64,000 nt of DNA from Nocardia sp. NBC_00565. GTDB lineage: Bacteria; Actinomycetota; Actinomycetes; Mycobacteriales; Mycobacteriaceae. A program made the translations under genes and the position numbers. Of the stretch, positions 3,876 through 62,441 are shown one piece after another (position 1 is the stretch's first letter; every line of letters begins with the position of its first letter). Location of the stretch: assembly GCF_036345915.1 (NCBI RefSeq), contig NZ_CP107785.1, positions 8,494,001 through 8,558,000 on the forward strand, in the 5' to 3' direction. The notes beneath the pieces are model-generated. The model saw nothing but the letters and a program-made list of their open reading frames with translations, searched no databases and was not told the DNA's origin.

Positions 3876-3882
3876 TGGTCGG

Positions 3883-4257
3883 ATGGACATAGACGATCAC
3901 CGCATGGGGAGTGCCGAGCCCAGCCTCGTTCGCCCGTACTCGTTGACTGCGGGCCGCACCCGGCCCGCAATCGAGTTGGCGTTGGAGGCGCTCGTCGCAT
4001 CGCATCCGGTCGCCCTGGAGCGGCAGTTCGAACTGACCAACATCGAGACGTCCATCGTGGAGTTGTGCAGAGAATCGCCGTCCGTTGCTGAAGTGGCAGC
4101 GCGTTTGGGTATCCCTATCGGGGTGGCCCGCGTGCTGGTGGCCGACCTCATCGAGGCCGGGCATGTGCGCGTTTCGGCGACTTTGAAAGACGATTCCAGC
4201 GACGATGAACGTCGCGAGCTGATCGAAAGGGTTCTCAGTGGACTCCGGCGTATTTGA
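3883..4257 (+). CDS. cvnC: DUF742 protein (conservon CvnC-like)
   Basis: A protein of about 124 residues with the DUF742 hallmarks LVRPYSLTAGRTRP near the N-terminus and a winged-helix-like C-terminal half (SPSVAEVAARLGIPIGVARVLVADLIEAGHVRV). I chose the ATG at 3883 because it sits 7 bp after the roadblock stop; ATG 3904 is an alternative. It overlaps the following GTPase gene by 20 bp. In conservons this protein accompanies the roadblock/GTPase pair; its biochemical role is not settled, and DNA binding is only a possibility suggested by the helical motif. Confidence 0.9.
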   Translation: MDIDDHRMGSAEPSLVRPYSLTAGRTRPAIELALEALVASHPVALERQFELTNIETSIVELCRESPSVAEVAARLGIPIGVARVLVADLIEAGHVRVSATLKDDSSDDERRELIERVLSGLRRI

Positions 4258-32992: not shown

Positions 32993-33029
32993 GTCTAGAA
33001 CGCGTTCTAGACAAAATTGGCATTTTGTC
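32993..33029. promoter_or_regulatory. KstR-type operator and second inverted repeat upstream of the P450 gene
   Basis: GTCTAGAACGCGTTCTAGAC (32993-33012) is a perfect 20-bp palindrome. Its core TAGAACGCGTTCTA (32996-33009) fits the KstR consensus TNNAACNNGTTNNA known from cholesterol-catabolism genes of mycobacteria and rhodococci. An overlapping inverted repeat GACAAAAT-TGGC-ATTTTGTC covers 33010-33029. The sites end 14 bp before the P450 start codon, a position suited to repression. Confidence 0.8.
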
Positions 33030-33042
33030 TTACATTCGAACC

Positions 33043-37558: not shown

Positions 37559-38800
37559 ATGACGCAGACCACAAGCCTTTCCGAGACACCCGATCGAGAC
37601 CTGGGTGGCTGCCCGGTCATGCATCGCGACTTCGCGCCCGCGCAGGCGGCCGGCCACCATTGGGAGTTGGCGGACGAACTGCGCGAGACGAGCCCGGTCT
37701 TCTTCAATACCTTCGCCCAGGGCTACTGGGTGTTCACCCGCCATGACGCGGTCCGCGACATCTACAAATTGCCGGAGGTGTTCTCGAGCGAGTCGATCAC
37801 ACCCTGGGAGCCGGACCCGATCTACCGCTTCGTCCCGACGCAGATCGACGCGCCCGACCACATCAAGTACCGCAAGATCGTCAACGCGTGGTTCTCGCCG
37901 CACGCGATCGACGAGGCGGAACAGACGATGCGCGACCGGTGCCGCAGACTCGTCGAGGAGGTGGCTCCCACCGGCGCATCCAACTTCGTCGGCGAGTTCG
38001 CCCTGCGCTTTCCCACCGAGGCCTTCCTCAGCGTGATCGGCATCGATCCTTCCGACGCGGACCTCTTCGTGCCGTGGGTCGAGGACTTCTTCGGCGGGTT
38101 CAGCGGTGACCCCGCCGGTCTGGAGCCGATGGGGAAGGCACTCGAGGGTATCCGCGGGTACTGGGTCGCCGCCCTGGCGGAGCGACGGGCCGATCCGGTG
38201 CCTCGCCAAGGCGATCTCGCGACGCACCTACTGCATTCGACCTTCGACGATCGTCCGCTCACCGACGCCGAGATGCTCGACATGCTCACGGTGCTCGTGC
38301 TGGCCGGGCTCGATACGACCCGCGGCACGCTCGGCTACCTGTTCCGCCACCTCGCCACGCACCCTGAACATCGCAGGCAGCTGATCGAACAGCCGGAGCT
38401 GATCCCGTCCGCGGTGGAGGAGGTGCTGCGTTTGTACACCATCGTCTTCGGCGACGGCCGAAAGGTGACTCGCGACATCGAGTTTCACGGTGTTCAGCTG
38501 AAGCGGGGCGATATGGTCTATGCGCTCGTCTCCGGCGCGAACCGAGATCCGCGCGCGTACGACCAGGCCGACGAGTTCGTCATCGATCGCCAGCGCAATC
38601 AACATATGGGCTTCGCGAACGGCCCGCACCGGTGCCTCGGCTCCCATCTCGCGCGGCGCGAGCTGCGGATCGCGGTCGAGGAGTGGTTGCGGGTGATCCC
38701 GGACTTCCACATCGCGGGCGAGGCAGAGCTGACCGAGCGCGGCGGCGGCGCGATGATGACGCTGACCCGGCTTCCACTGGCCTGGGCGGTGCAGTCGTGA
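37559..38800 (+). CDS. Cytochrome P450 (first gene of catabolic cluster)
   Basis: A 413-residue P450. I-helix LVLAGLDTTRGTLG, ExxR in VEEVLRLYT, heme motif MGFANGPHRCLGSH. It is followed with a 4-bp overlap (GTGA) by a 3Fe-4S ferredoxin that should supply electrons, then by a GMC oxidoreductase and, further on, an aldehyde dehydrogenase. This order suggests hydroxylation of a hydrophobic substrate and stepwise oxidation of the alcohol to an acid. The promoter carries the AACTGANNTCAGTT palindrome. Confidence 0.92.
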   Translation: MTQTTSLSETPDRDLGGCPVMHRDFAPAQAAGHHWELADELRETSPVFFNTFAQGYWVFTRHDAVRDIYKLPEVFSSESITPWEPDPIYRFVPTQIDAPDHIKYRKIVNAWFSPHAIDEAEQTMRDRCRRLVEEVAPTGASNFVGEFALRFPTEAFLSVIGIDPSDADLFVPWVEDFFGGFSGDPAGLEPMGKALEGIRGYWVAALAERRADPVPRQGDLATHLLHSTFDDRPLTDAEMLDMLTVLVLAGLDTTRGTLGYLFRHLATHPEHRRQLIEQPELIPSAVEEVLRLYTIVFGDGRKVTRDIEFHGVQLKRGDMVYALVSGANRDPRAYDQADEFVIDRQRNQHMGFANGPHRCLGSHLARRELRIAVEEWLRVIPDFHIAGEAELTERGGGAMMTLTRLPLAWAVQS

Positions 38801-44978: not shown

Positions 44979-45057
44979 GCTAGCCCGATCGGACACCCGT
45001 GTCCGTGATCGCCTGCGCCGCAGCGTATCCCTCCGCCATCGCGTGCGAGACCCGGCG
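44979..45057. repeat. Left copy of a 79-bp direct repeat bounding the island (OYE 3'-end remnant)
   Basis: These 79 bp match 60412-60490 in the same orientation with five mismatches. Read on the minus strand they encode RRVSHAMAEGYAAAQAIT and a stop, the C-terminus of the OYE-type protein encoded at 60413-62371. Further inward (about 45080-45093) GATCCCTTCTCCG resembles GATCCTTTCTCCG of the intact gene, so the remnant may extend beyond the repeat with a deletion of about 60 bp. The rest of 44860-45259 shows nothing else I recognise. Confidence 0.85.
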
Positions 45058-45259
45058 CCTCTTCGGCCGACCGCTACGAGATCCCTTCTCCGCTGCTGCC
45101 ACCACGCCACGGCATAACGAAAATCTGCCCGAAGTTGGGGGTCTGGCGGGGGGATTGCGATCGCTGCCATGCCGCGAAACTGTGGGGTTGAATGCGTCAC
45201 GGTCTCCGGTAACCCGGCCGATGTGCTGCATCGGATTTCATTGGCTAGCCGCCACCGAA

Positions 45260-46516
45260 CTAGAACGCAGTCATGGGAGAGGTAGGAGAGAAGTCGACCG
45301 GTAGCACGGCCAGGGCCCGATGAAAAGGGCCCGGCCGCCAGGCTATTTCACCGACCGGTACGGCCAGCCGCATCTCGGGCAGCGCATCGAGAAGCTGATG
45401 GATCGCGTCCTCAGCGATCAGGTAGGCCATCGACCGCGCCGGGCAGGCATGCGGGCCGAGGCCCCACGCCAAATGTGAGCGATTGCCCGTGTGATCCCCG
45501 GTGCGGATTGCGGGGTCGTTGTTGCAGCCGGCCATGCTGACCAGGACCGGTTGGTGCGCGGGTAGCCAGGCGTCGTTGATGAGGATCGGCTGCCGGGGAT
45601 AGCTGGCGCAGAAGTTTGCCAGTGGCGGGTCGCTGAACAGGACTTCGTCGAGTGCGTCGCGCGTGGACAAGCTCCCGGCGAGGACGTCGCCTGCGAACCG
45701 GTCGTCGGTGAGGATCAGCAGCAGAGTGTTGGCTGTCAGGTTTTGCTGCAACTCGAACGCCGCAGCATAGAAGCCCGCCACTTGGTGGAGCATCTCGGCC
45801 TCGTCCAGCCGGGCCGGGTGCCGCAGCAATCGCGAGGTAATGTCGTCGCCGGGTTCGGCCCGTTTGAGGGCAATCAATTCCCGCAGCGCCTCGCTGAGCA
45901 TTTCGTTGCCCGAGTCGGCGTCTATGCCCTCGAACATCGCGGCCATAGCCGTCGCGGCCCGCTGGCCTATCTCCAGCGGGCAACCGAGCAGGAGATTGAC
46001 AACTTCGAACGCCACCGGGAAGGCGTACTGCCTGATCAGGTCGGCCGTACCGGCCTGGCAAAAAGTATTGATCCGTTGGACGGCGATCTGCTCCACAGTG
46101 TCATGGAGTGCATGCAGATCCACTTCGTCGATGCTCGCTGTGATCGCCTGCCGGTAGCGCTCATACTCCGCTCCGGCGCTTCTACTCGCGATGGGCCGCC
46201 ACCCCAGCATCGGCAGGATAGGGCAGTCGGCGGGGATGTTCTTCTGCCACGTGCGCGGATCAGCCGGAAAATGGTCGTGGTCATGGAGGACCCGTATCGC
46301 GGTATAATAGCCGATCACCAACGTCGCGGGCACGCCTGGGGCCAAGTCCACCGGCACCAAAGAGCCGTACTGCGTGCGCATTTCACGGTAGGCGCGGTGA
46401 GGATCCGCAGCGAAGTCCGGCGAGTACATCGATACCCGCGGACCATCGCCACCATTCGGTGAGCCGTAATCGACCGGACCGGATTGGGTGTGTGACGGAT
46501 AATGCGGGTTGGTCAT
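45260..46516 (-). CDS. Cytochrome P450 lacking ExxR (CYP157-like), in the RiPP island
   Basis: A 418-residue P450 from ATG 46516. The heme motif WGLGPHACPARSMAYL has the Cys ligand but the usual Phe is Trp and the residue after Cys is Pro. The K-helix ExxR is not present: the matching position reads DEVLF. The I-helix segment AGFYAAAFELQQN lacks the usual Gly-x-x-Thr oxygen-activating pair. Streptomyces CYP157 enzymes are known to lack ExxR and have similar heme loops. It is divergent from the RiPP genes across a 1.3-kb region and could tailor the peptide; this link is inference. Confidence 0.82.
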   Translation of the reverse strand: MTNPHYPSHTQSGPVDYGSPNGGDGPRVSMYSPDFAADPHRAYREMRTQYGSLVPVDLAPGVPATLVIGYYTAIRVLHDHDHFPADPRTWQKNIPADCPILPMLGWRPIASRSAGAEYERYRQAITASIDEVDLHALHDTVEQIAVQRINTFCQAGTADLIRQYAFPVAFEVVNLLLGCPLEIGQRAATAMAAMFEGIDADSGNEMLSEALRELIALKRAEPGDDITSRLLRHPARLDEAEMLHQVAGFYAAAFELQQNLTANTLLLILTDDRFAGDVLAGSLSTRDALDEVLFSDPPLANFCASYPRQPILINDAWLPAHQPVLVSMAGCNNDPAIRTGDHTGNRSHLAWGLGPHACPARSMAYLIAEDAIHQLLDALPEMRLAVPVGEIAWRPGPFHRALAVLPVDFSPTSPMTAF

Positions 46517-47791
46517 GGAATGTCGCTCCAAACTCTCCATTTGTGACGCAGCGCAACCACAGAGCGGGCGGCGCCCAGGTCGACACGCACCTGAGGTCAT
46601 CGACAGCGCCATAGTGTGACATCGGCTGGGGGCGCAGGGGCAGGACCGAAGGTGCCAGCAAGCTGGCAGACCGCGCCAGAAGTCACGGCACAAACCCGTC
46701 GGCTTCACCTCACATCGGCGGACTGGGCCCCTGGCCGGTCACCGCCCGGGTCGCGATTTCGGCTGCAATTCAGTACTTCACCACGGTCAGTTCCGCATCC
46801 CGCTTGGAGCGTCCCCGTCGTTGTATCCACTGCGACCGAAGCATGTGCCCACTGGTACCCGTAGCCGCGGAGCGTGATGATCAAGTGGGGCTGGTTCAGC
46901 TTGGTACGGAGTCTGGCCATGTGTACGTCCAGCGAGTCCAGCGCTGTGCGCATCAGGGCTTGCCCGACGCCCGTCTTGTGCCGGTCCGGCAACACATGCC
47001 AGGAATGCACTTGGCCCGCACCATCCGGGCGGAGGGACGCCTCTACGTAGTGGCCGGAACAATCTCGGACGTCGGTATGAAGCTCGTGGCATCGGCAGGC
47101 TGCTGGCCGGAAATACCTGCTCGGAGTCCGTCGCTTCCTCGGTCGGTGTGCGATTGCAATCCTCGGCCGCGGGCTGTGTTGATTGCGCCGGCGCAATCAC
47201 TATCGACCACCGCTGAGTTCCGGGCAATTTCACGTAGATTGCCGGTCGCCGGCCGGTAGTAATAGCGATCGACGGCGCTGCTGGCTGTCTCGGCCGCATC
47301 GACTGCACGATTGGCCATCCCGGTAAGTATTCGGCCGAAATCGGCAACCACAGATAAACCTTCCTGCCGCCGGTGACCGCACAAGACTCCGTCTCATCGG
47401 TTCTTGGTCGGCTTGGTCGTCTGCGTGTCACGATCGGCTCAATAGACGAGAACGACAGGTTCCTCCAGGCCGGTAACGTCCTGGAGTTGACGGAGTCGCG
47501 GCTCCCGGAGTCACGCTCCACGGGTTGGCTTGTCCGACAACGAGATTCTGTACTGCACGCACCCGCCCTGCCAGAACAGAAACAAGTTGTAACGTTCTCG
47601 TAAGGAAGACGGGAACCGCGGGCATAGGTAATGCTGTTGTGCCGCAATACGCTTGATCAACCGGGCCGACGACCTGTCGCCCGGCGACGATCATCTCCCG
47701 TACCTGCATGCCGGAATCTTCTGCCGGGTATTTCGCCTTGTGACCGGCAGCTCCGCCATTCGCAACGGGAGAGATACAGGGAGGTTCTGTC
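46517..47791. other. 1.3-kb region without an intact gene, between the P450 and RiPP precursor
   Basis: No frame here looks like a real full-length gene: the open frames have shadow-type composition (runs of Arg, Pro, Ser). The only recognisable piece is a response-regulator DNA-binding fragment at 46831-46962. The precursor's ribosome site AGGGAGG lies at 47778-47784. The promoters of the P450 and of the RiPP operon must be in this region. A minus-strand frame at 47043-47384 (VVADFGRILTGMANRAVDAAE...) might be a decayed gene, but I cannot name it. Confidence 0.55.
46831..46962 (-). pseudogene. Fragment of an OmpR-type winged-helix DNA-binding domain
   Basis: The minus-strand frame reads ALDSLDVHMARLRTKLNQP followed by HLIITLRGYGYQW. 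This is the recognition helix and wing end of OmpR/PhoB-type response regulators (consensus VDVHIxRLRxKL ... IxTVRGxGYxx). The receiver domain is absent, and the sequence upstream in frame has only weak resemblance. Most likely a relic of a regulator that once accompanied the RiPP genes, or a truncated SARP-like regulator. Confidence 0.6.
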
Positions 47792-47935
47792 ATGGAAAAT
47801 CTTGCCGAACTCGCCGAGCTGGATCCTGAGCAGTTGATGGCCAACTCCAGTCCCGCATTGCGGGCCGCGATCGAACGTCACAAGACGCAATCCAGAGGTA
47901 ACGGCTTCACGTCGTTCATCAGCCCCGATAAGTAG
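47792..47935 (+). CDS. RiPP precursor peptide (FxsA-like, two tandem F-x-S motifs)
   Basis: A 47-residue peptide starting at ATG 47792, preceded by AGGGAGG at 8-bp spacing. An acidic, Leu-rich leader (MENLAELAELDPEQLM, then SPALRAAIERH) resembles leaders of FxSxx-COOH peptides. The C-terminus SRGNGFTSFISPDK contains FTS (39-41) and FIS (42-44), two consecutive F-x-S triplets, then PDK. It sits 92 bp ahead of an FxsB-type radical SAM gene on the same strand. In that family the maturase forms cyclophane cross-links between an aromatic residue and a residue two positions later. The gene is shorter than normal ORF cut-offs; I read it by translation. Confidence 0.85.
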   Translation: MENLAELAELDPEQLMANSSPALRAAIERHKTQSRGNGFTSFISPDK

Positions 47936-48027
47936 CCCGGATGTAAACCTTCCGCGGGCGACTGGTGTGCAGGCCAGCCCCGTGGGAGGACACAGCGCAG
48001 AGCGAACGAGGGATGGAGGCGGGGCCG

Positions 48028-49251
48028 GTGACCGTAAAACGTTCCGGGAGTCAAATGTATTGGCCCACAGTCGGGTTAGACGTCGCAAAGTTGATTCGCG
48101 GCGGTTGGGAGCCGCAGCCCTTCGTGGAGTTCGTCGTCAAGATCCACAGTCGGTGCAATCTGGCCTGTGACTACTGCTACATCTACGAGATGGCCGACCA
48201 GAGTTGGCGAGAGCAGCCGAGGACGATGAGCCGCCAGGTTTTCGCCGACGCTTGCCGGATGATCGGCGAGCATGCCCGCCGATTCGCGCTGCCCGCAGTT
48301 GATCTCGTATTCCACGGTGGGGAGCCATTACTGGCGGGACATCGGAACCTGGAGTACTTCGCCCGACAGGCCCGGGAACTGCTCGAGCCGAACACCGAAG
48401 TGCGTCTGGGGATGCAGACCAACGGCACGCTGCTCGATGCGGAGTTCCTGCGTATCTGCGATGAATCGGGTATCCAGATCGGAGTCAGTATCGATGGCAG
48501 TGAAGACGGGCATGACCGACATCGGCGGGATCGGCGAGGTGCGGGAAGCTACGCTCGGGTCACCGCGGGGCTCGGCCAGCTGCTGGCCGCCGATCGGCGC
48601 CACCTGTTCTCCGGCCTACTGTGCACGATCGAGGTGGCCAACGACCCGGTGGAAACCTACGAAGCGCTCGCGAAGTTCCGCCCGCCGGCGATCGATTTCT
48701 TACTACCGCATGGCAATTGGACAACTCCGCCACCGGCGTTGACAGTCGGCGACCCCGCCACACCCTATGCGGACTGGCTCATCGCGGTATTCGATCGCTG
48801 GTATCACGCACCGACGTTCGAAACCCACGTACGGCTCTTCGACGACATCATCGACCTCCTGCTGGGCGGGCAGCCGACATCGGAAGCCGTTGGACTCGCG
48901 CCCATTCGACTGGCCGTGATCGAGACCGACGGCACTCTCGAACAGGTCGACGAACTGAAGTCGACCTTCGCGGGGGCCACCAGACTTCTCCTCGAGGGCG
49001 AGGGTAATCCGCTCGACCAGGCGCTGCGGGAACCGTCCATGGTCGCCCGCCAGATCGGGGTCGCCGCGCTCAGCGACACCTGCCGCGCCTGCCCGGTACG
49101 CGCCGTGTGCGGCGGTGGGCACTACGCGCACCGATATCGCGCGGACAACGGCTTCCGCAACCCATCAGTGTATTGCTCCGACCTGCAGAAGTTGATCTAC
49201 CACATCGAATCCCGAATCCGCGCGGATGTCGACACCGCAATCAGCACTTAG
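48028..49251 (+). CDS. fxsB: FxsB-family radical SAM/SPASM cyclophane-forming peptide maturase
   Basis: A 407-residue radical SAM enzyme. The 4Fe-4S motif CNLACDYC (Cys 43, 47, 50) sits in the FxsB-typical context WPTVGLDVAKLIRGGWEPQP, EFVVKIHSRC, CYIYEMADQSWREQP; HGGEPLLAG and MQTNGTLLD follow. A C-terminal SPASM region (DTCRACPVRAVCGGG ... VYC) binds auxiliary clusters. The start GTG 48028 has GGAGG 8 bp upstream; ATG 48013 and GTG 47965 are alternatives. It should cross-link the core of the peptide encoded just upstream. Confidence 0.9.
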   Translation: MTVKRSGSQMYWPTVGLDVAKLIRGGWEPQPFVEFVVKIHSRCNLACDYCYIYEMADQSWREQPRTMSRQVFADACRMIGEHARRFALPAVDLVFHGGEPLLAGHRNLEYFARQARELLEPNTEVRLGMQTNGTLLDAEFLRICDESGIQIGVSIDGSEDGHDRHRRDRRGAGSYARVTAGLGQLLAADRRHLFSGLLCTIEVANDPVETYEALAKFRPPAIDFLLPHGNWTTPPPALTVGDPATPYADWLIAVFDRWYHAPTFETHVRLFDDIIDLLLGGQPTSEAVGLAPIRLAVIETDGTLEQVDELKSTFAGATRLLLEGEGNPLDQALREPSMVARQIGVAALSDTCRACPVRAVCGGGHYAHRYRADNGFRNPSVYCSDLQKLIYHIESRIRADVDTAIST

Positions 49252-49267
49252 CGACAGGAGACCGACC

Positions 49268-51061
49268 GTGACCGCGACATTCGCCGGGATCGACGATGCC
49301 ACCGCCGATTTGAGCTCCGGCCACGGAACCGAGCGGTCCATTGCGGTACTGGCGAACGGCCTGTTGACGACGCGGACGATTCTGCTGCGCACAGCCATTG
49401 CCGAAATCACCACACAGCTACCCGAAATCGCTGACCGCGCCGGACTTTCCCTGGCCTATCAGACCATGGCCGAACTCCAACGATCACATCCAGCGGCGGT
49501 CACAGCGTTACTGTCGTACCCGCACACCGGCCCATGGCTCGCCCGCGTCCTGCATCGCATTCACGCCGCACCCGACGACGAGACGACCCCCCTGTGGGCT
49601 GACTGCGGCTATCTGGGCTGGCTCGCCGCCGCCGGTGGTATCACCTGCCGGGCCGAGGGCTCAATGAAACTCGTGGTGCGCAACGGTGTCGTGATGCTGC
49701 CCGGGATCGGCATGGTTCGCTTCGGATCCGCCGAGGACTGCGGGCACTGCGAACTGCGCTGGACAAGTGAGGGCGCCTTGCACTTCACTCGGGACACGAC
49801 CACCGTCCTGATCTCGTGCACGGATGAGGAGTCCGACCCGGTATGGCTACCCCTGCGGCGACTGTGCGGGGCAGCGGACGAGCCGGAGGTTTTTCTCGAC
49901 GACCTCGATCCGTTCCGTGACTTCCTCGATGACAGAACGCCGGCCCGGCTGACGGCGGCACAAGCCGAATTGTGGCAGCAGGATTTCGCGGCGGCCTGGG
50001 ACCTGTTGGACCGTGATTTCGACCGATATCTGGTACCGATGCGCAGTTGCTTGCAGGCCCTGGCACCCCTGAGTGTCCGACCGCTTGTGGCCAGCACCAG
50101 CCACACCTCGTCCACCGGGCTCGGGTGCGTCTACACCACCGCCCCAGCGGATCCCTGTCAGCTGGCACTTTCGCTGATCCACGAGATCCAGCACACCAAG
50201 TTCACCCTCCTGACCGATCAGGTGGTCCTGGTGGATCCGGATCCGGCATGCCACTTCTACGCACCATGGCGCGACGACCCGCGCCCGATCTTCGGACTGC
50301 TACACGGGATTTACGCATTCTTCGGCGTCACCGACTTCTGGCGAGTCCATCGTCACGCCGACTGCCACCGCTCCCAGCAGGCGCACGTCGATTTCGAATT
50401 GTGGCGCATACAGGTGGAAGCGGCTATGACGCACGCGTCGACCTCCGGGCTGCTCACCGACTCCGGTGCACAATTCATCGACACGCTCCGGGCGGGCATG
50501 CGTCCCTGGAGCAGCGAGGATGTGTCCGCCGAGGCCAGGCTGGCCGCATCCGAAGCGTCCGCCGCGCATCGGACGTTCTGGCAGGTGCGCAACCTGATAC
50601 CGGACGCCGGGGGCATCGCCAACCTGGCTGCCCAGTGGACGGCACAGGCGTCACGGCCCACAGTGCTACCGTCCGCGGGGCACGCGGATCAGCAGACCGT
50701 GCCGGATGGATATCGCCGCCTTCACCTTTCGGCACAACTGAAGGTGTTCGACAGTGGACCGGCCGGAGCCCTCGCGAGCCCGGACCAGCCGCACGGTGAC
50801 CGGGCCTACCTGGCCGGCGACCTGTCCGAAGCGGTCGCGCTGTACGCCCGGGAGTTGCACGCCGACCCGCTCCGGCCACAACTGTGGGCGGGCTTGGCGT
50901 TGACCATGCCGAAGCTGTACCCGGACAGCAACTTCAGCATCCTGAACACCAGGGCAGAGGTGGCGGCCCGGCTGTATCGGACGGTGCGGGCGGATACCGG
51001 CACTGCCGCGATCATCGATCTGGTTCGATGGTTGTCGAACTGCCCTGACGTCGATGGATAG
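49268..51061 (+). CDS. HExxH-motif RiPP-associated protein (stand-alone)
   Basis: A 597-residue protein starting at GTG 49268 behind CAGGAG, 16 bp after fxsB. The motif SLIHEIQHTKFTLL (HEIQH at 305-309) is followed by GLLHGIYAFFGVTDFWR, the layout of the HExxH domain found beside or fused to FxsB-type enzymes. HExxH domains fused to cyclophane-forming radical SAM enzymes have been shown to be 2-oxoglutarate-dependent beta-hydroxylases rather than proteases. The N-terminal 250 residues and the C-terminal TPR-like part (AYLAGDLSEAVALYAREL) are less conserved. Likely second tailoring step on the same peptide. Confidence 0.85.
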   Translation: MTATFAGIDDATADLSSGHGTERSIAVLANGLLTTRTILLRTAIAEITTQLPEIADRAGLSLAYQTMAELQRSHPAAVTALLSYPHTGPWLARVLHRIHAAPDDETTPLWADCGYLGWLAAAGGITCRAEGSMKLVVRNGVVMLPGIGMVRFGSAEDCGHCELRWTSEGALHFTRDTTTVLISCTDEESDPVWLPLRRLCGAADEPEVFLDDLDPFRDFLDDRTPARLTAAQAELWQQDFAAAWDLLDRDFDRYLVPMRSCLQALAPLSVRPLVASTSHTSSTGLGCVYTTAPADPCQLALSLIHEIQHTKFTLLTDQVVLVDPDPACHFYAPWRDDPRPIFGLLHGIYAFFGVTDFWRVHRHADCHRSQQAHVDFELWRIQVEAAMTHASTSGLLTDSGAQFIDTLRAGMRPWSSEDVSAEARLAASEASAAHRTFWQVRNLIPDAGGIANLAAQWTAQASRPTVLPSAGHADQQTVPDGYRRLHLSAQLKVFDSGPAGALASPDQPHGDRAYLAGDLSEAVALYARELHADPLRPQLWAGLALTMPKLYPDSNFSILNTRAEVAARLYRTVRADTGTAAIIDLVRWLSNCPDVDG

Positions 51062-52268
51062 GTCGGGGATCCACACCAATCGGAATTTCCTCCTACTGTG
51101 GTCCGGCAACGCTACATCGCTTGTGGGGTTCCACGGCGTCCGAATCGCCTATCCACTGCTGGCGCTCACGGTGACCGGCTCCCCAGCCGCCGCCGGTTGG
51201 GTCGGGTTCGCACTGAGCGTGCCGAGCCTGATCTTCCAGATTCCCGCCGGCGTGGTTGCGGACTGTTCCGACCGACTGCGAACCTTGCTGCTATGCCAGG
51301 TCATCGGGCTGACAGCGACGTGCCTGGCCGCCGTGGCGGTCGCGGCCCAGCTGTCCGGCCTCGGCCAGTTGCTCGGTGCCGCAGCGTTCGTCGAGGGCAG
51401 CGTCTATGTCTTCCTCGGCCTCAGCGAGCTGGCCGCGGTCCGTGACCTGGTGACCCTCGCGCAACGACCCGCGGCGTTCTCTTTCCTCGAAGCCGAACAG
51501 CCGATCGCCATCCTGGTCGGGCGAGCGGCAGGTGCCGCGATCTACGGCGTCGCCCGCTGGCTGCCATTCGCGGCCAACGCCGTGTCATATCTGTACTGCT
51601 TCGCCACACTGGTGCTGATCCGTTCGAACTCGTCGCGGTCGTATGCCGACGAGTCCGCGGACCGGTCGGTCGGCCGCAATATCGCAGCCGGTGTTCGCGT
51701 CGTGTGGACCGAACCGTTCCTGCGGGTGTCGACGGCCATGATCGGTGGGTCGAATATCGTCATTCAAGTTGTCCTGCTGCTGATCCTGGTGGAGCTGAAG
51801 CGCGGCGGCCACCCTGCATGGACGGTGGGTGTCGTGCTCGGTACCGCGGGAGTGGGCGGAGTCCTCGGCGCGGCCGCGGCATCATGGGTCACCCGCCGCA
51901 TCCCACCCCGGCTCGTCTATCGGGGAGCATTGTGGGCCTGGACCGCCCTGCTGGTCCCGATTGCGTTGAGCGCCAACACCATTGTGCTGGCCGTGTGCTG
52001 GGGCGCAATCGGCGGCGTCGGTGTGGTCAGCAACGTCGCGTTGACCCTGTGCCGGGTCGAGGTCATACCCGAACACACGCTCGGTCGTACCGTCGCGGCC
52101 ATGGCGATTGTCTGCGACGGCGCGGTAGCGATCGGTGCGCTCGGCGCTGGCTACCTGCTCTCCACTGTCGGGATCGTCACCACGCGATGGACCGCGCTTG
52201 CGGCGATGTGCACACTCGCCGTGTATGCGACCATCCGCACCGCTGCGAGGACAACCGCTCAGAGATGA
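51054..52268 (+). CDS. MFS transporter, probable exporter of the RiPP
   Basis: A 404-residue major facilitator of the MFS_3 (exporter) type with about 12 membrane helices (NFLLLWSGNATSLVGFHGVRI, AGVVADCSDRLRTLL as the loop 2-3 motif, FLEAEQPIAILVGRAAGAAI). ATG 51054 lies inside the end of the HExxH gene (8-bp overlap), so it is the last gene of a precursor-FxsB-HExxH-MFS operon. This coupling makes peptide export or self-resistance its most likely job. Confidence 0.87.
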   Translation: MDRSGIHTNRNFLLLWSGNATSLVGFHGVRIAYPLLALTVTGSPAAAGWVGFALSVPSLIFQIPAGVVADCSDRLRTLLLCQVIGLTATCLAAVAVAAQLSGLGQLLGAAAFVEGSVYVFLGLSELAAVRDLVTLAQRPAAFSFLEAEQPIAILVGRAAGAAIYGVARWLPFAANAVSYLYCFATLVLIRSNSSRSYADESADRSVGRNIAAGVRVVWTEPFLRVSTAMIGGSNIVIQVVLLLILVELKRGGHPAWTVGVVLGTAGVGGVLGAAAASWVTRRIPPRLVYRGALWAWTALLVPIALSANTIVLAVCWGAIGGVGVVSNVALTLCRVEVIPEHTLGRTVAAMAIVCDGAVAIGALGAGYLLSTVGIVTTRWTALAAMCTLAVYATIRTAARTTAQR

Positions 52269-52520
52269 CGTCACCCGGCTACAACGCTCGCAGTGACCCG
52301 GGGCCCAGCGGCTGTCCGTCCGGGAGATCTGGACTTAGTGGGAGTGCAGGATCTGGGATGAGTAGTGGTGCCGGTCGAAGAACGCCAGCGCTGAGGGATG
52401 TTCTCGCCCGGGTGTTGCGGTCATCGCGCGTACGCTGCCGCGACGGGCTGCACAACTCGGGCTGGTCGCCCACTCGCGTCGAGGTGATCCATGCCGCGGG
52501 CCTGAGGAGTGAGTCGCGCC

Positions 52521-54185
52521 GTGTCCATTGAAGTACCGCACGAGGTGGCGCTGTTCCTGAATTACATGGGTGTCCCGTATCCGGACATCGATGAGGATCA
52601 GGTACGTGAATTGGCTGGTCAGGTGCGGGATTTCGCCACGAACCTACGCGACACCCACGAGTCGGCCACTGGCGCGATCCAGGATATGGGCTCGGTCTAT
52701 TCGGGATATTCCTACGAGCAACTGGTCACGGTGTGGGCGCGGATGAGCTCATCGCACATGGCGGACTTGGATGGGGCGTGCCATGTGGTGGCGAAGGTCC
52801 TGGACGTCGCCGCGGAGGTGATCACCGTGGTGAAGGTCGCTGTGCTTGCCGGATTGGCTGCGATGGCGGCGAGTTACACGGCCCTCATGGCTGCCACCGT
52901 GCCCACCGTGGGTTTATCGGCCGCACTCACCGCAGCTATCCGGGCGGCCGCGACCAAGGTGGTCACCGCGATGGAGCAGATGGTGATCGGTTATATCGCC
53001 ACCGAGGTGATCGACAAGGCCATCGAACCGCTCGAGCACACCATCGAGCGCATGATCAACGGCGTCGTGTACGACGCTGCGAAACAGCTACTGGATGTAC
53101 CGCCCGACAGCTCGTCGGCACTGCCGCTGCACATCGAACCCGATGAGGTACTGCGGTACAGCGATATGCTCGACGAATACGCCGACGACGTCCTCCGGCA
53201 TGCCATGACCTTCGCCGACAACGTTGCCGCGCTGGACTTCAGCACGTCCAGCGAGCGCGATGATCTGGTTGGCCCCGGCCCGAACACCTCCGACATCACG
53301 CCCGGATCATCACATCCCGACACCGGTCCTGAACTGTCGTCCACTCCAACGACTTCGGCCGAGACGGCGCCGGAAGTAAGCGGATCGCGGCCGATGGAAG
53401 CCGCTCCGGTCGGCGCCAACAGTGCCGATTCCCGGACAGCGGACACATCCGACGACGGCCGTTCTGCTACCGCACCCGAGCGAGCTGCTGTGCCCAAGGC
53501 GCAAGCCGACACCGGCACCGCAGCTGTGCCCAGCGCACAAGAGCGCACCGATAGCGGCGGAGTGAACTCGGCCGCTATCGCCGCCGACCGCGCGGCAGCG
53601 ATGCCGACACCGGCCGACAACCGTTCCCTCCCGACGCCGACCGACGCGACGCATAATTTGCGCGAGATGACCCAGCGGCTACCGGAGATCTCGCCACATT
53701 CCTTGGAAAACGTCGCGCAACCTATCGAAGACTTTGCGCGGCATAGCCGTTCAGGCGAACATTCGCCGGCCTCGTTGGGAGCCGACACACCCGAAAACGT
53801 CCTGCCGCCTGGGTCCGACTCCGTCCAGAACAGTCACGCGAACACGACCGACGGCCAGCCGGGTGCTTCCCCAGTGCAGGGCACGCGGCAGGGTATTTCG
53901 TCGTCGACTCCGTGGCAGCGTTCCGTGCCGCCGGGCAAACGAGCAAAGGCAGCCGCGAAGCCTGCTGCGAGCAACGTTGGCAAGCAGCGCGCCACCGATC
54001 CGGCAACCGACAAACCGATAAGGACGCCGTGGTCGACGAAGCCCGAGCCCACCCCGGTCACCGATCCCAAGGTTTTCACGCCGGACACTGCGGGCCCGGC
54101 GCCTGTGCTCCCGGCCGACAGCCTCGCGACCGCAGCGGAGCGACCGAACAAGGCGGCCGATCGCGCCACCGAACCGCCCATCTGA
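52521..54185 (+). CDS. WXG100-like / CpnT-N-terminal-like protein with disordered tail, no toxin domain
   Basis: A 554-residue protein from GTG 52521 (GAGGAG at 52504). Residues 1-200 match the N-terminal helical domain of actinobacterial type VII-linked polymorphic toxins (SIEVPHEVALFLNYMGVPYP, VRELAGQVRDFATNLRDTHE, a hydrophobic stretch VVKVAVLAGLAAMAASYTALM). Residues 250-554 are low-complexity Ser/Thr/Pro/Ala sequence with no folded C-terminal effector, unlike normal toxins of this group. The 252 bp separating it from the exporter gene contain nothing I recognise. No immunity gene follows. Confidence 0.72.
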   Translation: MSIEVPHEVALFLNYMGVPYPDIDEDQVRELAGQVRDFATNLRDTHESATGAIQDMGSVYSGYSYEQLVTVWARMSSSHMADLDGACHVVAKVLDVAAEVITVVKVAVLAGLAAMAASYTALMAATVPTVGLSAALTAAIRAAATKVVTAMEQMVIGYIATEVIDKAIEPLEHTIERMINGVVYDAAKQLLDVPPDSSSALPLHIEPDEVLRYSDMLDEYADDVLRHAMTFADNVAALDFSTSSERDDLVGPGPNTSDITPGSSHPDTGPELSSTPTTSAETAPEVSGSRPMEAAPVGANSADSRTADTSDDGRSATAPERAAVPKAQADTGTAAVPSAQERTDSGGVNSAAIAADRAAAMPTPADNRSLPTPTDATHNLREMTQRLPEISPHSLENVAQPIEDFARHSRSGEHSPASLGADTPENVLPPGSDSVQNSHANTTDGQPGASPVQGTRQGISSSTPWQRSVPPGKRAKAAAKPAASNVGKQRATDPATDKPIRTPWSTKPEPTPVTDPKVFTPDTAGPAPVLPADSLATAAERPNKAADRATEPPI

Positions 54186-54290
54186 GCGCACAGCGACAGC
54201 AAGAGGCAGCCGACCACCCCAGGAGCTCATCGACCATCAACCAGTCGATGCCCGCTCCAGCGAAATAACCAGTCCCACAACAGAAGACGT

Positions 54291-54324
54291 CCCTCGCCCG
54301 ATGATCGGGCGAGGGTTGTCTTTT
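54291..54324 (+). terminator. Rho-independent-type terminator
   Basis: CCCTCGCCCGAT and ATCGGGCGAGGG form a perfect 12-bp inverted repeat around one base, followed by TTGTCTTTT. It lies 105 bp after the WXG100-like gene and before the 3' end of the convergent UDP-glucose dehydrogenase gene, so it can stop both. Confidence 0.8.
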
Positions 54325-54386
54325 CCTACGGCCATCGAAACCGCCACTCGTGCCCGCCGATCGACGGCATCGTCGCGTGGCAAAGG

Positions 54387-55700
54387 TCAGGCGGTGGCCC
54401 GCCCGAGTCCGCGAATCGTCCAGCCGGCGGTGCGCCAGGAATCCAGCGAGAGCACGTTCCGCCCGTCGAGAATGCGTGGGTGGTTCACCGTCTTGGCGAG
54501 CTCCGCCGGATCCAGTTCCCGGTATTCCCTCCACTCGGTCAGATGGAGCACGATGTCGGCGTGCTCACACGCCTTGGTCACCTCGCGCGCGTAGTCGAGC
54601 CCGGGAAACACCGCACGCGCGTTATCGAGTGCTTCGGGGTCATGCACTCGTACCCGGCCACCGCGCAGCTGAATCGCGGCCGCCACGTTGAGTGCCGGAG
54701 AATCCCGGACATCGTCGCTATCCGGTTTGAACGCCGCACCCAGTACCGCGACGGTGCGCCCGAGGAACGAGCCACCGACGAGCTGGCGAGCCAGCTCGAC
54801 CACGTGTTCCCGTCGCCGCATGTTGATCTCGTCGACCTCTTTCAGGAAACCCAATGACGCCCCGACGCCCAGCTCACCAGCTCGGGCCGTGAATGCACGG
54901 ATATCCTTCGGCAAGCAGCCACCGCCGAAGCCGAGTCCCGCGGACAGGAATCGGCGTCCGATGCGGTCGTCATGGCCGATCGCATCGGCGAGCGTGACGA
55001 CATCGGCACCGGCCGCCTCGCACACATCGGCAATCGCATTGATGAACGAAATCTTCGTCGCCAGGAAGGCATTCGCCGAGACCTTGACCAACTCCGCGGT
55101 GGCCAGATCCGTCGAGATGTACGGGATACCTTCTTCCAGGATCGGCGCGTAGACCGAACGCAGGATCGAGTCGGCCTCGGCCGATTGGACGCCGACCACC
55201 AGTCGGTCCGGCCTCAGCGTGTCCTGCACCGCGAAACCTTCGCGAAGGAATTCCGGGTTCCAGGCCACCTCGATACTGGCGGGCGCAAGCCGAGCCACCC
55301 GGGTCGCCAGCGCGGCCGCCGTCCCGACCGGCACGGTGGACTTGCCGACAATCAAGGCGTCCCGGTTCAAATGGGGCGCCAACCCGTCGATCACGTCGTT
55401 CACATACCGCAGGTCCGCGGCATATGACCCCGGCTCCTGCGGAGTACCGACACAAACGAAATGGATATCGCCGAACTCGGCGGCTTCGACGAGCGATGTC
55501 GTGAATCGCAGCTTGCCGGAGCTGACGTTGCGCTCCAACACCTCGGAAAGGCCGGGTTCGAAGAAGGGCGCTCGGCCCGCGGCCAGTACTTCGATCTTGT
55601 CGGCATCGAGGTCGACACCGAGTACTTCATGACCGATTTCGGCCATGCAGGCGGCATGGACCGCTCCCAGATATCCTGTTCCGATCACCGTAATCCGCAT
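54387..55700 (-). CDS. ugd: UDP-glucose 6-dehydrogenase
   Basis: A 437-residue UDP-glucose/GDP-mannose dehydrogenase family protein: NAD motif VIGTGYLGAVHAACMAEIGH, CVGTPQ, KSTVPVGT, NPEFLREG, the catalytic Cys in GFGGGCLPKDI, and C-terminal AFKPDSDDVRDSPAL. It oxidises UDP-glucose to UDP-glucuronate. It is on the same strand as the glycosyltransferase and UDP-glucuronate decarboxylase genes and supplies their precursor. A 218-bp gap upstream holds nothing I recognise. Confidence 0.92.
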   Translation of the reverse strand: MRITVIGTGYLGAVHAACMAEIGHEVLGVDLDADKIEVLAAGRAPFFEPGLSEVLERNVSSGKLRFTTSLVEAAEFGDIHFVCVGTPQEPGSYAADLRYVNDVIDGLAPHLNRDALIVGKSTVPVGTAAALATRVARLAPASIEVAWNPEFLREGFAVQDTLRPDRLVVGVQSAEADSILRSVYAPILEEGIPYISTDLATAELVKVSANAFLATKISFINAIADVCEAAGADVVTLADAIGHDDRIGRRFLSAGLGFGGGCLPKDIRAFTARAGELGVGASLGFLKEVDEINMRRREHVVELARQLVGGSFLGRTVAVLGAAFKPDSDDVRDSPALNVAAAIQLRGGRVRVHDPEALDNARAVFPGLDYAREVTKACEHADIVLHLTEWREYRELDPAELAKTVNHPRILDGRNVLSLDSWRTAGWTIRGLGRATA

Positions 55701-55918
55701 GTCGTTCTCCTGAGTGGAAAATCGGGGTGTTGGACAACCCGTGGTAGCCGTTGGTCGAGCCGTCGGAACCGTTACGCGTCATCGCATATAGCGGCCAGAT
55801 TTCGAGTGGTTCGCCAGCCCCATTTCCGCTCGACCCGGCTCACGTCGGCGATGAGGCACGCCACGTCATCGGGGCGTCGATCCACGATCCGATAAGGGAT
55901 CTCCGTGCCTTTCTGCAT

Positions 55919-57757
55919 TCACTTCCGAACCACGAACAGGGCAATCGCCGCAATGGCGGGAGTAATTGTCAGTGCGGCTATCGATAACGGGGCCGCCACG
56001 TTCTCGATAGCACGGCGAAAGCTCACGCCGGCCGCCTTGACGGTTTCCGCGGCATGCAGCAGACACACCGCGAACGTCACCGCGATAAAGACCGCCGCCC
56101 CCAATAGCGAAAGGAAGACGTAACTTGCCGTCGCACTGGACAACTCGCCGATGAACGCGGCAGCGGCCAACGTCGTTCCGATCACGGCATAAGGTGCGAT
56201 CAGTCTGGACGGCAGCGGCTCGAGCCCGTCCACCTCTTTGGGAGTCACCTTGATCGTGATCGTGCTGGGCCGGAACAGTTGCCAGACCGCCGCACCCACT
56301 CCCCAGGCGATGAACGGCCACCTGGTCAGGCGGTACAGCCAGTTCTCCCAGCTCAGAATTGGTGTATCGATCGGCCGGAGCAGCCCGGCTCTCCGCAACA
56401 CCACAGTGAGCAGGACGAGCCAGAGCGAATTGGCCACCCAGTACAGGAGCACCAGAATCGGGTTGGCGGCGAACCACTTCGCTCCGGTGACGGCACTGAT
56501 CGCCAGGGCCGCTATGCCGCATCCGATGGCCACGATCAACGCGGAGTGAAAAAGCATCGCGTACAGATACCGCAGCCGCAACCGCCAACTGAGCCGGCCG
56601 AAATGTAGCGGCACCACCCGCAACAGCAGGGTGGTCAGGCTTCGTGTCCATTGAAATTCTTGGACGAGCATCGCCGAAAACGTCAGTGGCCCGTTCCCGT
56701 GTGTACCGGCCGCAATGGCGAAGGCACCGCGCCAACCCGCTGATTCGAGTAGGAACCCGGTCGAGAAGTCTTCCAGGAGTTCTGGACCGATCCCACCGAT
56801 CTCGGCAAGGGCCTGTGTTCTGATCGCCCAGTGGGAGCCGATGGGGATCGGCGCCAGTCCGCGGTTGTGACCGAGTTGAACAGGACCGTGGAAGTACGCC
56901 TCACGATGTACCCGTCCGCGGGCCGACCACGAACTCGCCGCGTTGCGGTCGCAATTATTCGGTGCCGCGACATAACCGACGGCGGGATCGCCGAACGGCC
57001 GGACCATCTCGGCCAGCGTGCTCGAGTCCGGCACGTGATCGCAGTCGACGTGGACTGCGACATCGTAATTCTCGTACCCCACGCGATCGTAGAAGTACGC
57101 GAGGTTGCCCTCCTTGCACCGAGTACGGCGGGGCCAGGCGGCACAGTGGTATTCCTCGACACCGAATCGACTGGAAATCCGGACGCCGTGCGCCACACAC
57201 CAATCCGTCACCGCTGCGGTCGGCTGCTCGTCGCACAGCCACACGTCGTAGGGGTACGGGAACTCTTGCGCCAGCATCGACGACAGCGTCGTCCGCGCGA
57301 CGTCCCATGGTTCCGACGGTGCGCGTGTGACGACAAACGCCACCCGAAGCCCGGGCACCGGCAATCGCCGATCGACTTGCCACAGTCGGTTCGCCGCGGC
57401 GAGATAGGACAGCGGCTCGCAGGAGAGGTACAGCAATACCGTGCTGCCGATAAGGAACCCGATCCATCCCACCCGGTTTTCGGGCCACAGCCACCACCAC
57501 CAGAAGGCCAGGACGCCGACGAGCCAACCGATAGTCAGGCCGACGACGAGTACGCGCTCCCGGCGCCCCAGTGCGGGCACGAAGGTTTCCGGGTCGAAAG
57601 TCCGTTGCTGTTTCGTACCGCGATCGAATATCGGTCCGCGCGAAGAAATTTCGATGACATTGCCATCGGACAGTCGTCGGATCGCCGCGGTGCGGTCTCG
57701 ATCACCGGGGTCCTGGTGCGCCTGGGTTGGTGATTGTGTAGGACCGAGCGAGTTCAC
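55919..57757 (-). CDS. Membrane family-2 glycosyltransferase (cellulose/hyaluronan synthase-like)
   Basis: A 612-residue processive-type glycosyltransferase. Two N-terminal membrane helices ([23 protein letters not shown]), a GT-A domain with [12 protein letters not shown] (DxD-like), [11 protein letters not shown] and [14 protein letters not shown] (the QxxRW motif reads QWTRS), then about six C-terminal helices. GTG 57757 overlaps the decarboxylase stop by 4 bp (GTGA), so translation is coupled. With UDP-glucuronate and UDP-xylose made by its neighbours, it may polymerise or export a uronate- or xylose-containing glycan. Confidence 0.85.
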
Positions 57758-58761
57758 AGCTGTTCCTGGTATTCCGGGAACAGGTTGTCGCATTGCCCGC
57801 CGGCAACGGCGGGGGCGGCCGCGGCCACCTCCTCCGGCCTGGACCGGAACCACTCCACCGTGCGGCCTACACCGTCCTCGATATCGACTCGCGGTGACCA
57901 GCCGAGGGTCCTGCGCGCCTTGGTGATATCCGGGCGACGCCGAGTCGGGTCGTCGGTTGGCAGCGGGTGGAACTCGATGGGCGAGTGGGCGCCGGTGACC
58001 GCCAAGACCAGCTCGGCGAGTTCGGCCACGGTGCGTTCATTCGGGTTGCCCAGGTTGACCGGACCCGGCTCGGGCGAGTCGATCATGGCGACAATGCCGC
58101 GGATGAGATCATCGACGTAGCAGAAGCTTCGGGTTTGGCTCCCGTCGCCGTAGATTGTCAGCGGGTCACCATTCAGGGCCTGCGTGATGAAGCTGGTCAC
58201 CACGCGGCCATCATGGGGGCGCATCCGAGGACCATAGGTATTGAAGATCCGAATCACACCGGTATCGACGCCCAGAGTCCGTCGGTAGGCTGCGGTAAGC
58301 GCCTCGGCGAACCGTTTGGCTTCGTCGTACACACTGCGTGGGCCGATCGGGTTGACATTGCCCCAATACTCTTCGCGCTGCGGATGCATCAGTGGGTCAC
58401 CGTAGATCTCACTGGTCGATGCCAGCACGAAGCGAGCTCCATGCCGGTGCGCCAGCCGCAGGGCGTGCTCCGTTCCACGGCTCCCGACCGCAAGCGTCTC
58501 GAGCGGCAGCCGGTGATAGTCGGGCGGGGAGGCCGGGCTGGCCAGATGCGCAACCGCGGAAACCGTGCCCTCGATCTCCAGTCCGGCGCTGACATCAGCC
58601 TCATAGAATTCGAAGGCGGGATTTTCCGCCAAATACTCGATATTGGATTTGTTGCCGGTCGACAGGTCGTCCACACATATGACCTGATCACCTCGATCGA
58701 GGAGTAACGCACACAAATGGGAGCCGATAAAACCAGCGCCGCCAGTTACCAGAACACGCAT
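57754..58761 (-). CDS. UDP-glucuronate decarboxylase (UDP-xylose synthase)
   Basis: A 335-residue extended short-chain dehydrogenase: [50 protein letters not shown], the catalytic YDEAKR (Tyr-x-x-x-Lys), [18 protein letters not shown], and [16 protein letters not shown]. The phrases SPASPPDY and TSEIYGDP with MHPQ are diagnostic for UDP-xylose synthases. It would turn UDP-glucuronate into UDP-xylose. First gene of the operon with the glycosyltransferase and, further down, ugd. Confidence 0.9.
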
Positions 58762-59080
58762 CGATCACCTCGGTGATTTACAGGTTTGAGCTGGCGTCGC
58801 GTGGCCAACCCTATGCGAGAAGAATAAGCCACAACCAGACACCGATGCGCGACAGACTGAATGGTTTGGTTTGGCCGAAAACCGTACCGCGCCCGTACTC
58901 GACGACCTGCTGCGACCGAGTTGTATCGATCGAGCAGCAATTTTACCGCCCGGTAACGGGCGCGGCGGCGACATCTTTTCGTCAGCTCGTCCGCCCACTA
59001 TGGCACCTGACTCCGGAATGGCAGCGATGACGCGTGGGCCCTACCGCACTCGCGGGTAAATGAACGAAGGTTGAAATTAA
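58762..59080. other. Divergent intergenic region (319 bp)
   Basis: This stretch separates the sugar-nucleotide operon (minus strand) from an MFS gene (plus strand) and must hold both promoters. I see no clear palindrome, -10/-35 pair or small gene in it. A and T are more frequent than in the flanking genes, as expected for promoter DNA. Confidence 0.5.
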
Positions 59081-60340
59081 TTGAGCGGCGATTCAGTCGA
59101 ACTTTATAGTTCCTTGAGATTGCGGAAGGGCCAGTTCGATCACCCCGCGACGATCGCTGCGAGCGACTCGGCGACCCGCCTGGTGCGCGATCGCGTCACC
59201 TGGCTGCACTATGCGCAGCAAGGCGCCCTCGGATATTTCCAGTTCGGATTCGGTCCCGCCGTACTCCTGCTCAGACAGGAGGCGGATGTGAGCCGTACGG
59301 TCGCCGGCCTGTACGGACCGGCGTTGGCGGTCGGCGCAGTGCTCGGCGGCGCACTGTTCCCGCACTTGACGCGGCGGTCGCCACTAGCCGTCGTACTGTC
59401 GATCGCCCTGGGCGGAATGGCCACCGGCGTGGCCATATTCTGCCTGGCACCATCGGTGACCGGCACGCTTGTCGGTGCGGCATTCGCCATGACATTCGGC
59501 ATCCTCGTGCTCAGCGCAGTGTCCACCGGACTCTCCGACCACCACGGAACGACTTCCGGCGCAGCGATCAGCGAGGCCAACGCGGCCAGTGCCGGCATGG
59601 GGATCATCTCCCCATTGCTGATCAACGTCGCCGTGGACGCCGGACTGGGCTGGCGTGCGGCAATGGGCCTTTCGATTGTTTTCGCCTGTGTACTCGCCGC
59701 GGTAACCGCGCTGAGCCACCGACGGTCGACCGTTGCGGTCCGCATCGTTGCCGATCAACGACATTCGGATGGCGAGGGCCTGCCACCGCGATACTGGCTG
59801 GCGTGGACTTGCCTGCTGGCCACCGGTTCCGTCGAGGCGGGCCTGATGCTGTGGTCGCCCGAGGAACTTCGAATGCACACCGGAATGGCCGCGAACACGG
59901 CTGCTACCGGGGTCTCCGCTGTACTCGGCGGCATGGTGGTCGGCCGACTCGCGGGCGGATGGGTGGTAGCGCGGGTCCCCACCGTCGCCTTGATGTTGGC
60001 TGCACTGGCGGTCGCGGCGGCGGGATTCGCGGTGTTCTGGTCCACGGCCGACCCGGGAATCGCCATAGGCGGCCTCATTTGCTGCGGGTTGGGTATCTCG
60101 TTGCACTTCCCGCTCAGCGTGGCCCTCACCCTGCGGGCGTCGAATCAGCAGCCCGAACTCGCCATGTCGCGCAACTCCTACGGCGTCGCCTTCGGCTTGG
60201 GGGCTGCCCCTTTCCTCCTCGGCGCCGCGGCGGATCTGCTCGGGATTCGTGCGGCATTCGGGTTGATACCCCTCTGCCTGCTCGTCGCAGCCCTCTCGGT
60301 CGGACAACTGATGCGTCTGGCCCGACGTAACCACCTGTGA
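59081..60340 (+). CDS. MFS transporter (CynX/NimT-like)
   Basis: A 419-residue transporter with about 12 helices (GYFQFGFGPAVLLLRQEADVSR, AVLGGALFPHLTRRSPLAVV, GTTSGAAISEANAASAGMGI, GMVVGRLAGGWVVARVP). The start at TTG 59081 is weakly supported by GAAGG 15 bp upstream; a GTG at 59192 is another option. Substrate is unknown. It is the last gene inside the island; its 3' end is 72 bp from the right direct repeat. Confidence 0.8.
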   Translation: MSGDSVELYSSLRLRKGQFDHPATIAASDSATRLVRDRVTWLHYAQQGALGYFQFGFGPAVLLLRQEADVSRTVAGLYGPALAVGAVLGGALFPHLTRRSPLAVVLSIALGGMATGVAIFCLAPSVTGTLVGAAFAMTFGILVLSAVSTGLSDHHGTTSGAAISEANAASAGMGIISPLLINVAVDAGLGWRAAMGLSIVFACVLAAVTALSHRRSTVAVRIVADQRHSDGEGLPPRYWLAWTCLLATGSVEAGLMLWSPEELRMHTGMAANTAATGVSAVLGGMVVGRLAGGWVVARVPTVALMLAALAVAAAGFAVFWSTADPGIAIGGLICCGLGISLHFPLSVALTLRASNQQPELAMSRNSYGVAFGLGAAPFLLGAAADLLGIRAAFGLIPLCLLVAALSVGQLMRLARRNHL

Positions 60341-60411
60341 TGCGCGGCCGGCGGAGTGTCCATCGCTCTCGCGTTCACCGCGGTCTCTAGCGCGGTGCTG
60401 ATCCTGCGTGG

Positions 60412-60490
60412 GCTAGCCCGATCGGACACTCAGGACCGTGATCGCCTGCGCCGCAGCGTATCCCTCCGCCACCGCGTGCGAGACCCGGCG
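60412..60490. repeat. Right copy of the 79-bp direct repeat (3' end of the intact OYE gene)
   Basis: These bases contain the last 26 codons and the stop of the OYE gene on the minus strand. They match 44979-45057 at 74 of 79 positions in the same orientation. Four of the five differences fall together in the bases encoding VLSV versus DTGV near the C-terminus. Confidence 0.85.
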
Positions 60491-62371: not shown

Positions 62372-62427
62372 TTCATGAGTTTGCCTCGATGTGATTGACA
62401 CCACAAGGGGCTGCGGATAGATTCTCA

Positions 62428-62441
62428 AACTGAGGTCAGTT
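62428..62441. promoter_or_regulatory. Palindromic operator AACTGANNTCAGTT (copy 3)
   Basis: AACTGA-GG-TCAGTT lies 57 bp before the OYE start on the minus strand and 96 bp before the lipoprotein gene on the plus strand. It is the third perfect copy of the palindrome in the window and can serve both divergent units. Confidence 0.8.

Follow-up and report, generated by a model that had tools for sequence, protein, structure and literature searches.

A candidate FxsB-type RiPP operon with a stand-alone predicted HExxH hydroxylase and a neighboring CYP157-like P450 in Nocardia sp. NBC_00565

A 64,000-nucleotide stretch of the Nocardia sp. NBC_00565 genome (NZ_CP107785.1, positions 8,494,001 to 8,558,000; hereafter the window, whose numbering is used throughout) contains a four-gene operon at 47792-52268 for a ribosomally synthesized and post-translationally modified peptide (RiPP). 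It encodes a precursor peptide, an FxsB-family radical SAM/SPASM enzyme, an HExxH protein, and a major facilitator superfamily (MFS) protein (Table 1). We judge it likely that this operon is of the FxsB/triceptide kind and gives rise to a peptide with a cross-linked and hydroxylated FTS core, and that the cytochrome P450 gene diverging from it is unrelated to the pathway. A first-pass annotation had listed all five genes, each of which proved real and correctly placed; its grouping of the first four into one tight operon was upheld by gene calls, family matches, and the conservation of neighbors in 24 related loci.

RESULTS

The precursor carries a conserved FxS core

The precursor has a C-terminal core reading ...GFTSFISPDK, in which F39-T40-S41 constitutes the FxS motif. 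Loci fetched for comparison carry L numbers and genomes of the genus G numbers. The main set comprised 24 related Nocardia loci (L065-L088) of 12 to 19.5 kb, several of them cut by contig ends and 436 kb in total; a second set comprised 23 loci of 3.6 to 19.2 kb from outside Nocardia, with L160, a 29% partial match, left out. Using a profile with the window peptide and 12 relatives as its seeds, we found precursor homologs in 22 of the 24 Nocardia loci, and this recurrence places the precursor beyond chance. Nineteen of the 22 scored at E ≤ 1e-3, and the weak matches in L072, L082, and L083 (E 0.005-0.07) were identified from the repeated FxS cores that precede FxsB. A search of the whole database with the precursor returned only itself; it also missed homologs detected by the profile and is thus uninformative on spread. 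An MFS relative was present in 19 of the 24 loci (on the FxsB strand in 15) and an HExxH gene in 11 (on the FxsB strand in 10). L078 has its FxsB gene on one strand and its precursor, HExxH, and MFS genes on the other.

Cores were counted by hand in 30 precursor open reading frames (ORFs), giving 49 in all, with L072 contributing nine of the at least nine repeats present. The counts include L126, L127, and L156, which lie outside the 24 loci, and omit three weak profile matches taken as chance (L106, L107, and L077) and a 36-aa fragment (L066, 9786-9893). A locus at a contig edge (L094) and loci of less than 57% identity (L089-L093 and L095) entered neither the counts nor the 24 loci. The first Phe of FxS was kept in 48 of 49 cores, as was its Ser. 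The Phe of the second triplet was kept in 40 of 49, and the last position of that triplet was Ser in only 8 of 48 and Gly, which lacks a C-beta, in 4 of 48; one core ends earlier. Because the first Phe and Ser are near invariant while the last position of the second triplet varies, we regard a single FxS as the conserved unit.

These counts bear on the number of rings, which the first-pass annotation had put at two. As a rule for the family, a two-ring core was rejected, since positions 4 and 6 vary. In the window peptide itself, a second ring is possible from the residues present, but conservation gives no indication of one. Cyclophanes at both FTS and FIS of this core are, in our view, rather unlikely. 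The core does contain both triplets, the second Phe is widely kept among relatives, and the title of a 2025 paper on ChlB names that enzyme a multiple cyclophane synthase. Against this stand the scarcity of Ser and the occurrence of Gly at the third position of the second triplet, the core that ends before it, and nine relatives that instead repeat whole FNSFI-type units.

Multi-core precursors, with 2 to at least 9 FNSFI- or FNSAI-type repeats, were seen in L070, L072, L074, L075, L082, L083, L085, L086, and L087. All nine adjoin a LuxR/AAA regulator gene (~900 aa), and none stands beside an HExxH gene. The FxsB proteins of these loci form one clade (Shimodaira-Hasegawa-like approximate likelihood ratio test [SH-aLRT] support, 99).

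The maturase belongs to the FxsB family

The FxsB protein passes the NCBIfam model TIGR04269 at 458 bits against a cut-off of 370, and its CxxxCxxC motif and three SPASM Cys residues are invariant in 11 aligned rows. It shares this family with the triceptide synthases ChlB and MscB, the InterPro family of MscB being equivalent to TIGR04269, and its residues 55-423 align with the ChlB structure 9gm3 at E 3.8e-72. According to a review (PMC11002830), the link made by MscB runs from Phe C4 to Ser C-beta, and the window core has the FxS motif that MscB links. The window system differs from FxsB-family triceptide systems in that its precursor has no match to the FxSxx-COOH model and in that FTS is followed directly by FIS in the core.

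Relatives of the enzyme at E ≤ 1e-40 were found in 34 of 150 genomes of the genus, the window genome included. Named relatives come from Nocardia species, and more distant ones from Actinomadura, Nonomuraea, Nocardiopsis, and others. The window genome has three FxsB places, and the FxsB of the window clusters with those of two loci that lack an HExxH gene (SH-aLRT 97). In three loci (L066, L067, and L068), two FxsB genes flank a single HExxH-MFS pair, in the order B-H-MFS-A-B; the first FxsB match of L066 contains a TGA.

The HExxH protein is a predicted peptide hydroxylase

The HExxH protein passes NCBIfam TIGR04267 at 139 bits against a cut-off of 40, and its HExQH motif is invariant in 14 of 14 aligned homologs. 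Sequence alignment gives E 2.7e-37 with 22nu, whose chain sequence is identical to that of SjiH 22ob, and E 3.5e-9 with ChlH (8s5f). An AlphaFold2 model with a predicted local distance difference test score (pLDDT) of 89 matched SjiH 22ob at E 1.8e-21, with a template modeling (TM) score of 0.85 of the target; its match to ChlH 8s5f had E values of about 1e-8 to 1e-7. The protein is thus predicted to adopt the ChlH/SjiH fold. By its TIGR04267 domain, predicted fold, and retained HExxH motif, it resembles the alpha-ketoglutarate (aKG)-HExxH hydroxylases ChlH, SjiH, BpmH, and PflC/PosC. It differs from them in a C-terminal extension of ~170 residues with a weak TPR signal, present in all 14 homologs aligned, and from ChlBH in being encoded by a separate gene rather than fused.

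The chemistry of such enzymes has precedent. According to a 2025 preprint (PMC12636437), a fused radical SAM-HExxH enzyme beta-hydroxylates Asp and His of a precursor whose cyclophane is already in place; the preprint also describes Gln hydroxylation and backbone cleavage by PflC and PosC. The first-pass proposal of cyclophane formation and hydroxylation is supported as probable. Novelty of the FxsB/HExxH set could not be sustained, as the fused ChlBH has already been characterized (PMC12636437; PDB 8s5f, 9gm3, and 22ob).

Proposed pathway

In the pathway that we propose, FxsB would link the Phe39 ring to the Ser41 beta-carbon within FTS, giving a three-residue cyclophane with a change of −2 Da. 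The separate aKG/Fe(II) HExxH enzyme would then hydroxylate the cross-linked core (+16 Da), a protease from outside the operon would remove the leader, and the MFS protein would export the product after leader removal. Cyclization, hydroxylation, leader removal, and export is the likely order by analogy, because the fused radical SAM-HExxH enzyme acts on a cyclophane that is already installed (PMC12636437, as cited above).

Several observations weigh against this interpretation of the locus. The precursor was not found in L077 and L081, either by profile search or by inspection upstream of FxsB, and FxS is broken in 2 of 49 cores (the second ORF of L076, and L127). The window precursor has no match to the FxSxx-COOH model TIGR04268 up to E 10, and the relative in L073 reaches 13.6 bits, below the cut-off of 28; such a non-match tests the model and not the chemistry. 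In L065 and L126, which hold the closest FxsB relatives, the FxsB and MFS genes are not separated by an HExxH gene, and hydroxylation may therefore be dispensable. Nor does any core residue, judged by eye, separate loci with HExxH from those lacking it, so that the hydroxylated residue cannot be named from the sequence. Finally, the P450 shares a 15.4-kb island with the operon, and P450s of its family stand in line with an FxsB-HExxH fusion gene in L096, which is in the window genome, L106, and L107.

The neighboring P450 is one of a large family

The P450 had no match to the Pfam p450 model even at E 10 and gave weak P450 matches in NCBIfam; with phmmer, it aligned over 378 residues with PikC (E 1.4e-25). 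It retains the heme Cys and reads DEVLF where PikC has EEMLR, with Phe in place of the Arg of ExxR. The absence of ExxR reported in the first-pass annotation is accordingly real, but the same Phe is found in all 47 family sequences compared (taken from the best matches, window copy included). All 47 also have the heme Cys and lack the Thr after the I-helix acid. By hand count, the window genome holds 13 full-length copies at ≥52% identity, the window's own included, plus two fragments, and a match at E ≤ 1e-163 occurs in every one of the 58 further genomes compared within the genus.

In CYP157 proteins, EVLW or EQSLW replaces ExxR, and these proteins are linked to conservons (PMC3599690). The window P450 resembles such CYP157/CvnE-type P450s in having an aromatic residue for the ExxR Arg (EVLF) with the heme Cys kept, and some of its relatives sit in conservons. 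Among 18 family P450s with fetched flanks, counted by hand, five (L116-L119 and L124) are directly preceded by conservon genes (roadblock, DUF742, and GTPase) and followed by a second P450. The other 13 have no conservon genes within the fetched flanks; the window copy likewise has none and is solitary. It differs from CYP157 in having Phe rather than Trp, and the comparison rests on the motifs described in that source, hence our designation CYP157-like only. It differs from CvnE-type P450s in not directly following conservon genes.

Among the 24 related Nocardia loci, one (L082, 56% identity) has a family P450 nearby and another (L087) a canonical P450; three P450 queries found none near the 23 loci outside Nocardia. 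By our own estimate, which assumes equal density, 13 copies per 9.7 Mb would place ~0.6 family P450s in the 436 kb by chance. On the strength of these neighbor counts and the number of paralogs, the P450 was rejected as a conserved partner of the operon. Co-occurrence of the first-pass gene set thus held for the precursor, MFS, and, in about half of the Nocardia loci, HExxH, but not for the P450, and the proposal of a tailoring P450 was not supported.

In L096 (5660-11849), L106 (6132-12005), and L107 (10113-16072), the FxsB-HExxH fusion is accompanied on one strand by a second HExxH gene, an ExxR-less P450, and an F420-dependent LLM gene. Module order in L096 is swapped relative to L106 and L107, and the right flank is common to all three. 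Precursors ending in ...TTGISFSSALI precede the fusion gene in L106 and L107; none was recognized in L096.

The P450s of these three loci group in a single clade (SH-aLRT 100) to which the window P450 does not belong, and five other fusion loci (L105 and L108-L111) have no P450 match. Given the single clade, the common right flank, and the P450-free fusion loci, the three associations amount to about one event, with which the window P450 is not directly concerned. On the tree of all 47 rows, the five FxsB-adjacent P450s require 3 changes against the 42 others; this count supersedes one on 10 labeled rows, which allows a single origin for the five.

The window P450 is most likely a bystander, and we infer that it is a CYP157-like heme protein unrelated to the operon and carried in the same acquired island. 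Two other roles were weighed. It is unlikely to be a heme-based, CvnE-like regulator that controls the RiPP operon or signals via one of the conservons of the genome, for example, the one at window 1-4840. The five conservon-linked relatives are in keeping with such a role, as is the proposal that P450-type CvnE accessories modulate conservon kinases (PMC13343842), and it would be unusual for a monooxygenase to lack both the I-helix Thr and the ExxR Arg. Against it count the 13 of 18 relatives without conservon genes; the members with flanks of the window P450's own 12-row clade (L097, L098, L102, L115, and L120-L123), none of which has them; and the 40 kb separating the P450 from the window conservon, which is followed by a carboxyltransferase gene. 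Even less probable is a true tailoring enzyme acting on the cyclophane peptide: its divergent position within the same island, the fusion loci, and the presence of a family P450 close by at two of the three FxsB places in the window genome are outweighed by near-chance occurrence in Nocardia and absence outside it, a 1.27-kb spacer holding a probable regulator remnant, loss of both catalytic motifs besides the heme Cys, and the clade and tree counts above.

Similarly small is the chance that a CYP157-type heme protein (lacking both the I-helix Thr and the Arg of ExxR) has joined Nocardia FxsB/HExxH pathways on more than one occasion, namely, in the window island and, separately, in the fused cluster of the window genome and of two close relatives, there serving either as a third oxidase or as a pathway-controlling heme sensor. 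Among the titles listed in searches of the open PMC literature, which lacks most subscription papers, none described an FxsB operon with such a P450.

The conservon at window 1-4840 consists of kinase-like, roadblock, DUF742, and GTPase genes and has no P450 directly after it. Canonical P450 genes (PF00067) lie at window 33025-34263 and 37559-38800, the second beside a GMC oxidoreductase gene.

Operon and P450 share an island bounded by a direct repeat

In two relatives, G183 and G184, the stretch from ~45058 to 60411 is missing, and the flanking DNA is ~90-96% identical. The island is bounded by a 79-bp direct repeat that corresponds to the 3′ end of a flavin oxidoreductase gene. A repeat search of the genome, with 9 of 70 first-look candidates scored, found the two window copies and no other; G183 has a second, partial copy of the repeat with a different short insert between. 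The island contains the P450, the RiPP operon, and genes for a WXG100-like protein, UDP-glucose dehydrogenase, a glycosyltransferase, an epimerase, and an MFS protein. Because it is missing in relatives and bounded by repeats, the P450 and the RiPP operon appear to share an acquired stretch with surface-sugar genes. The flanking repeat of a gene 3′ end resembles site-specific insertion, and no integrase was seen among the larger annotated island ORFs, small ORFs being outside this inspection.

Gene starts

A GGGAGG stretch lies closely upstream of the precursor start. For FxsB, GTG 48028, with GGAGG upstream, is a more likely start than 47965, and for the HExxH protein GTG 49268, with AGGAG upstream, is likely; both ribosome-site sequences were judged by eye. 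The MFS gene start overlaps the HExxH gene end by 8 bases. The P450 probably starts at 46516 and not 46708, because most relatives among the matches listed align from about there, and this start leaves 1.27 kb between the P450 and the precursor.

Table 1. Features of the operon, the P450, and the surrounding island in the window
Feature	Coordinates	Strand	Remarks
RiPP precursor peptide	47792..47935	+	47 aa; ATG start at 47792, stop ends at 47935; leader with SPALRAAIERH
FxsB-family radical SAM/SPASM enzyme, probable cyclophane synthase	48028..49251	+	ORF open from 47965
Stand-alone aKG-HExxH-type peptide hydroxylase (predicted)	49268..51061	+	ORF open from 49226
MFS transporter, likely exporter	51054..52268	+	PF07690, 81 bits
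CYP157-like P450	45260..46516	−	ORF open to 46708; judged a bystander
Spacer between P450 and precursor, 1.27 kb	46517..47791		Holds probable winged-helix regulator remnant
Winged-helix regulator remnant (probable; OmpR-type, C-terminal part only)	46705..47196	−	PF00486, E 1.7e-6, profile positions 44-76 of 77
Island absent from two close relatives	45058..60411		15.4 kb
Direct repeat, left copy	44979..45057	+	79 bp; 94% identity to 60412-60490
Direct repeat, right copy	60412..60490	+	79 bp; at 3′ end of oxidoreductase gene 60413-62428 (−)

DISCUSSION

The product of this operon is very probably a small cross-linked and hydroxylated peptide made by chemistry that is already known. The analysis removes a false lead, in that ExxR loss characterizes the large Nocardia family to which the neighboring P450 belongs and does not point to new RiPP chemistry. 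What the locus offers is a compact, readily testable FxsB/HExxH operon with an unfused hydroxylase, and its closest relatives, which are free of the hydroxylase, provide a natural comparison for the effect of hydroxylation.

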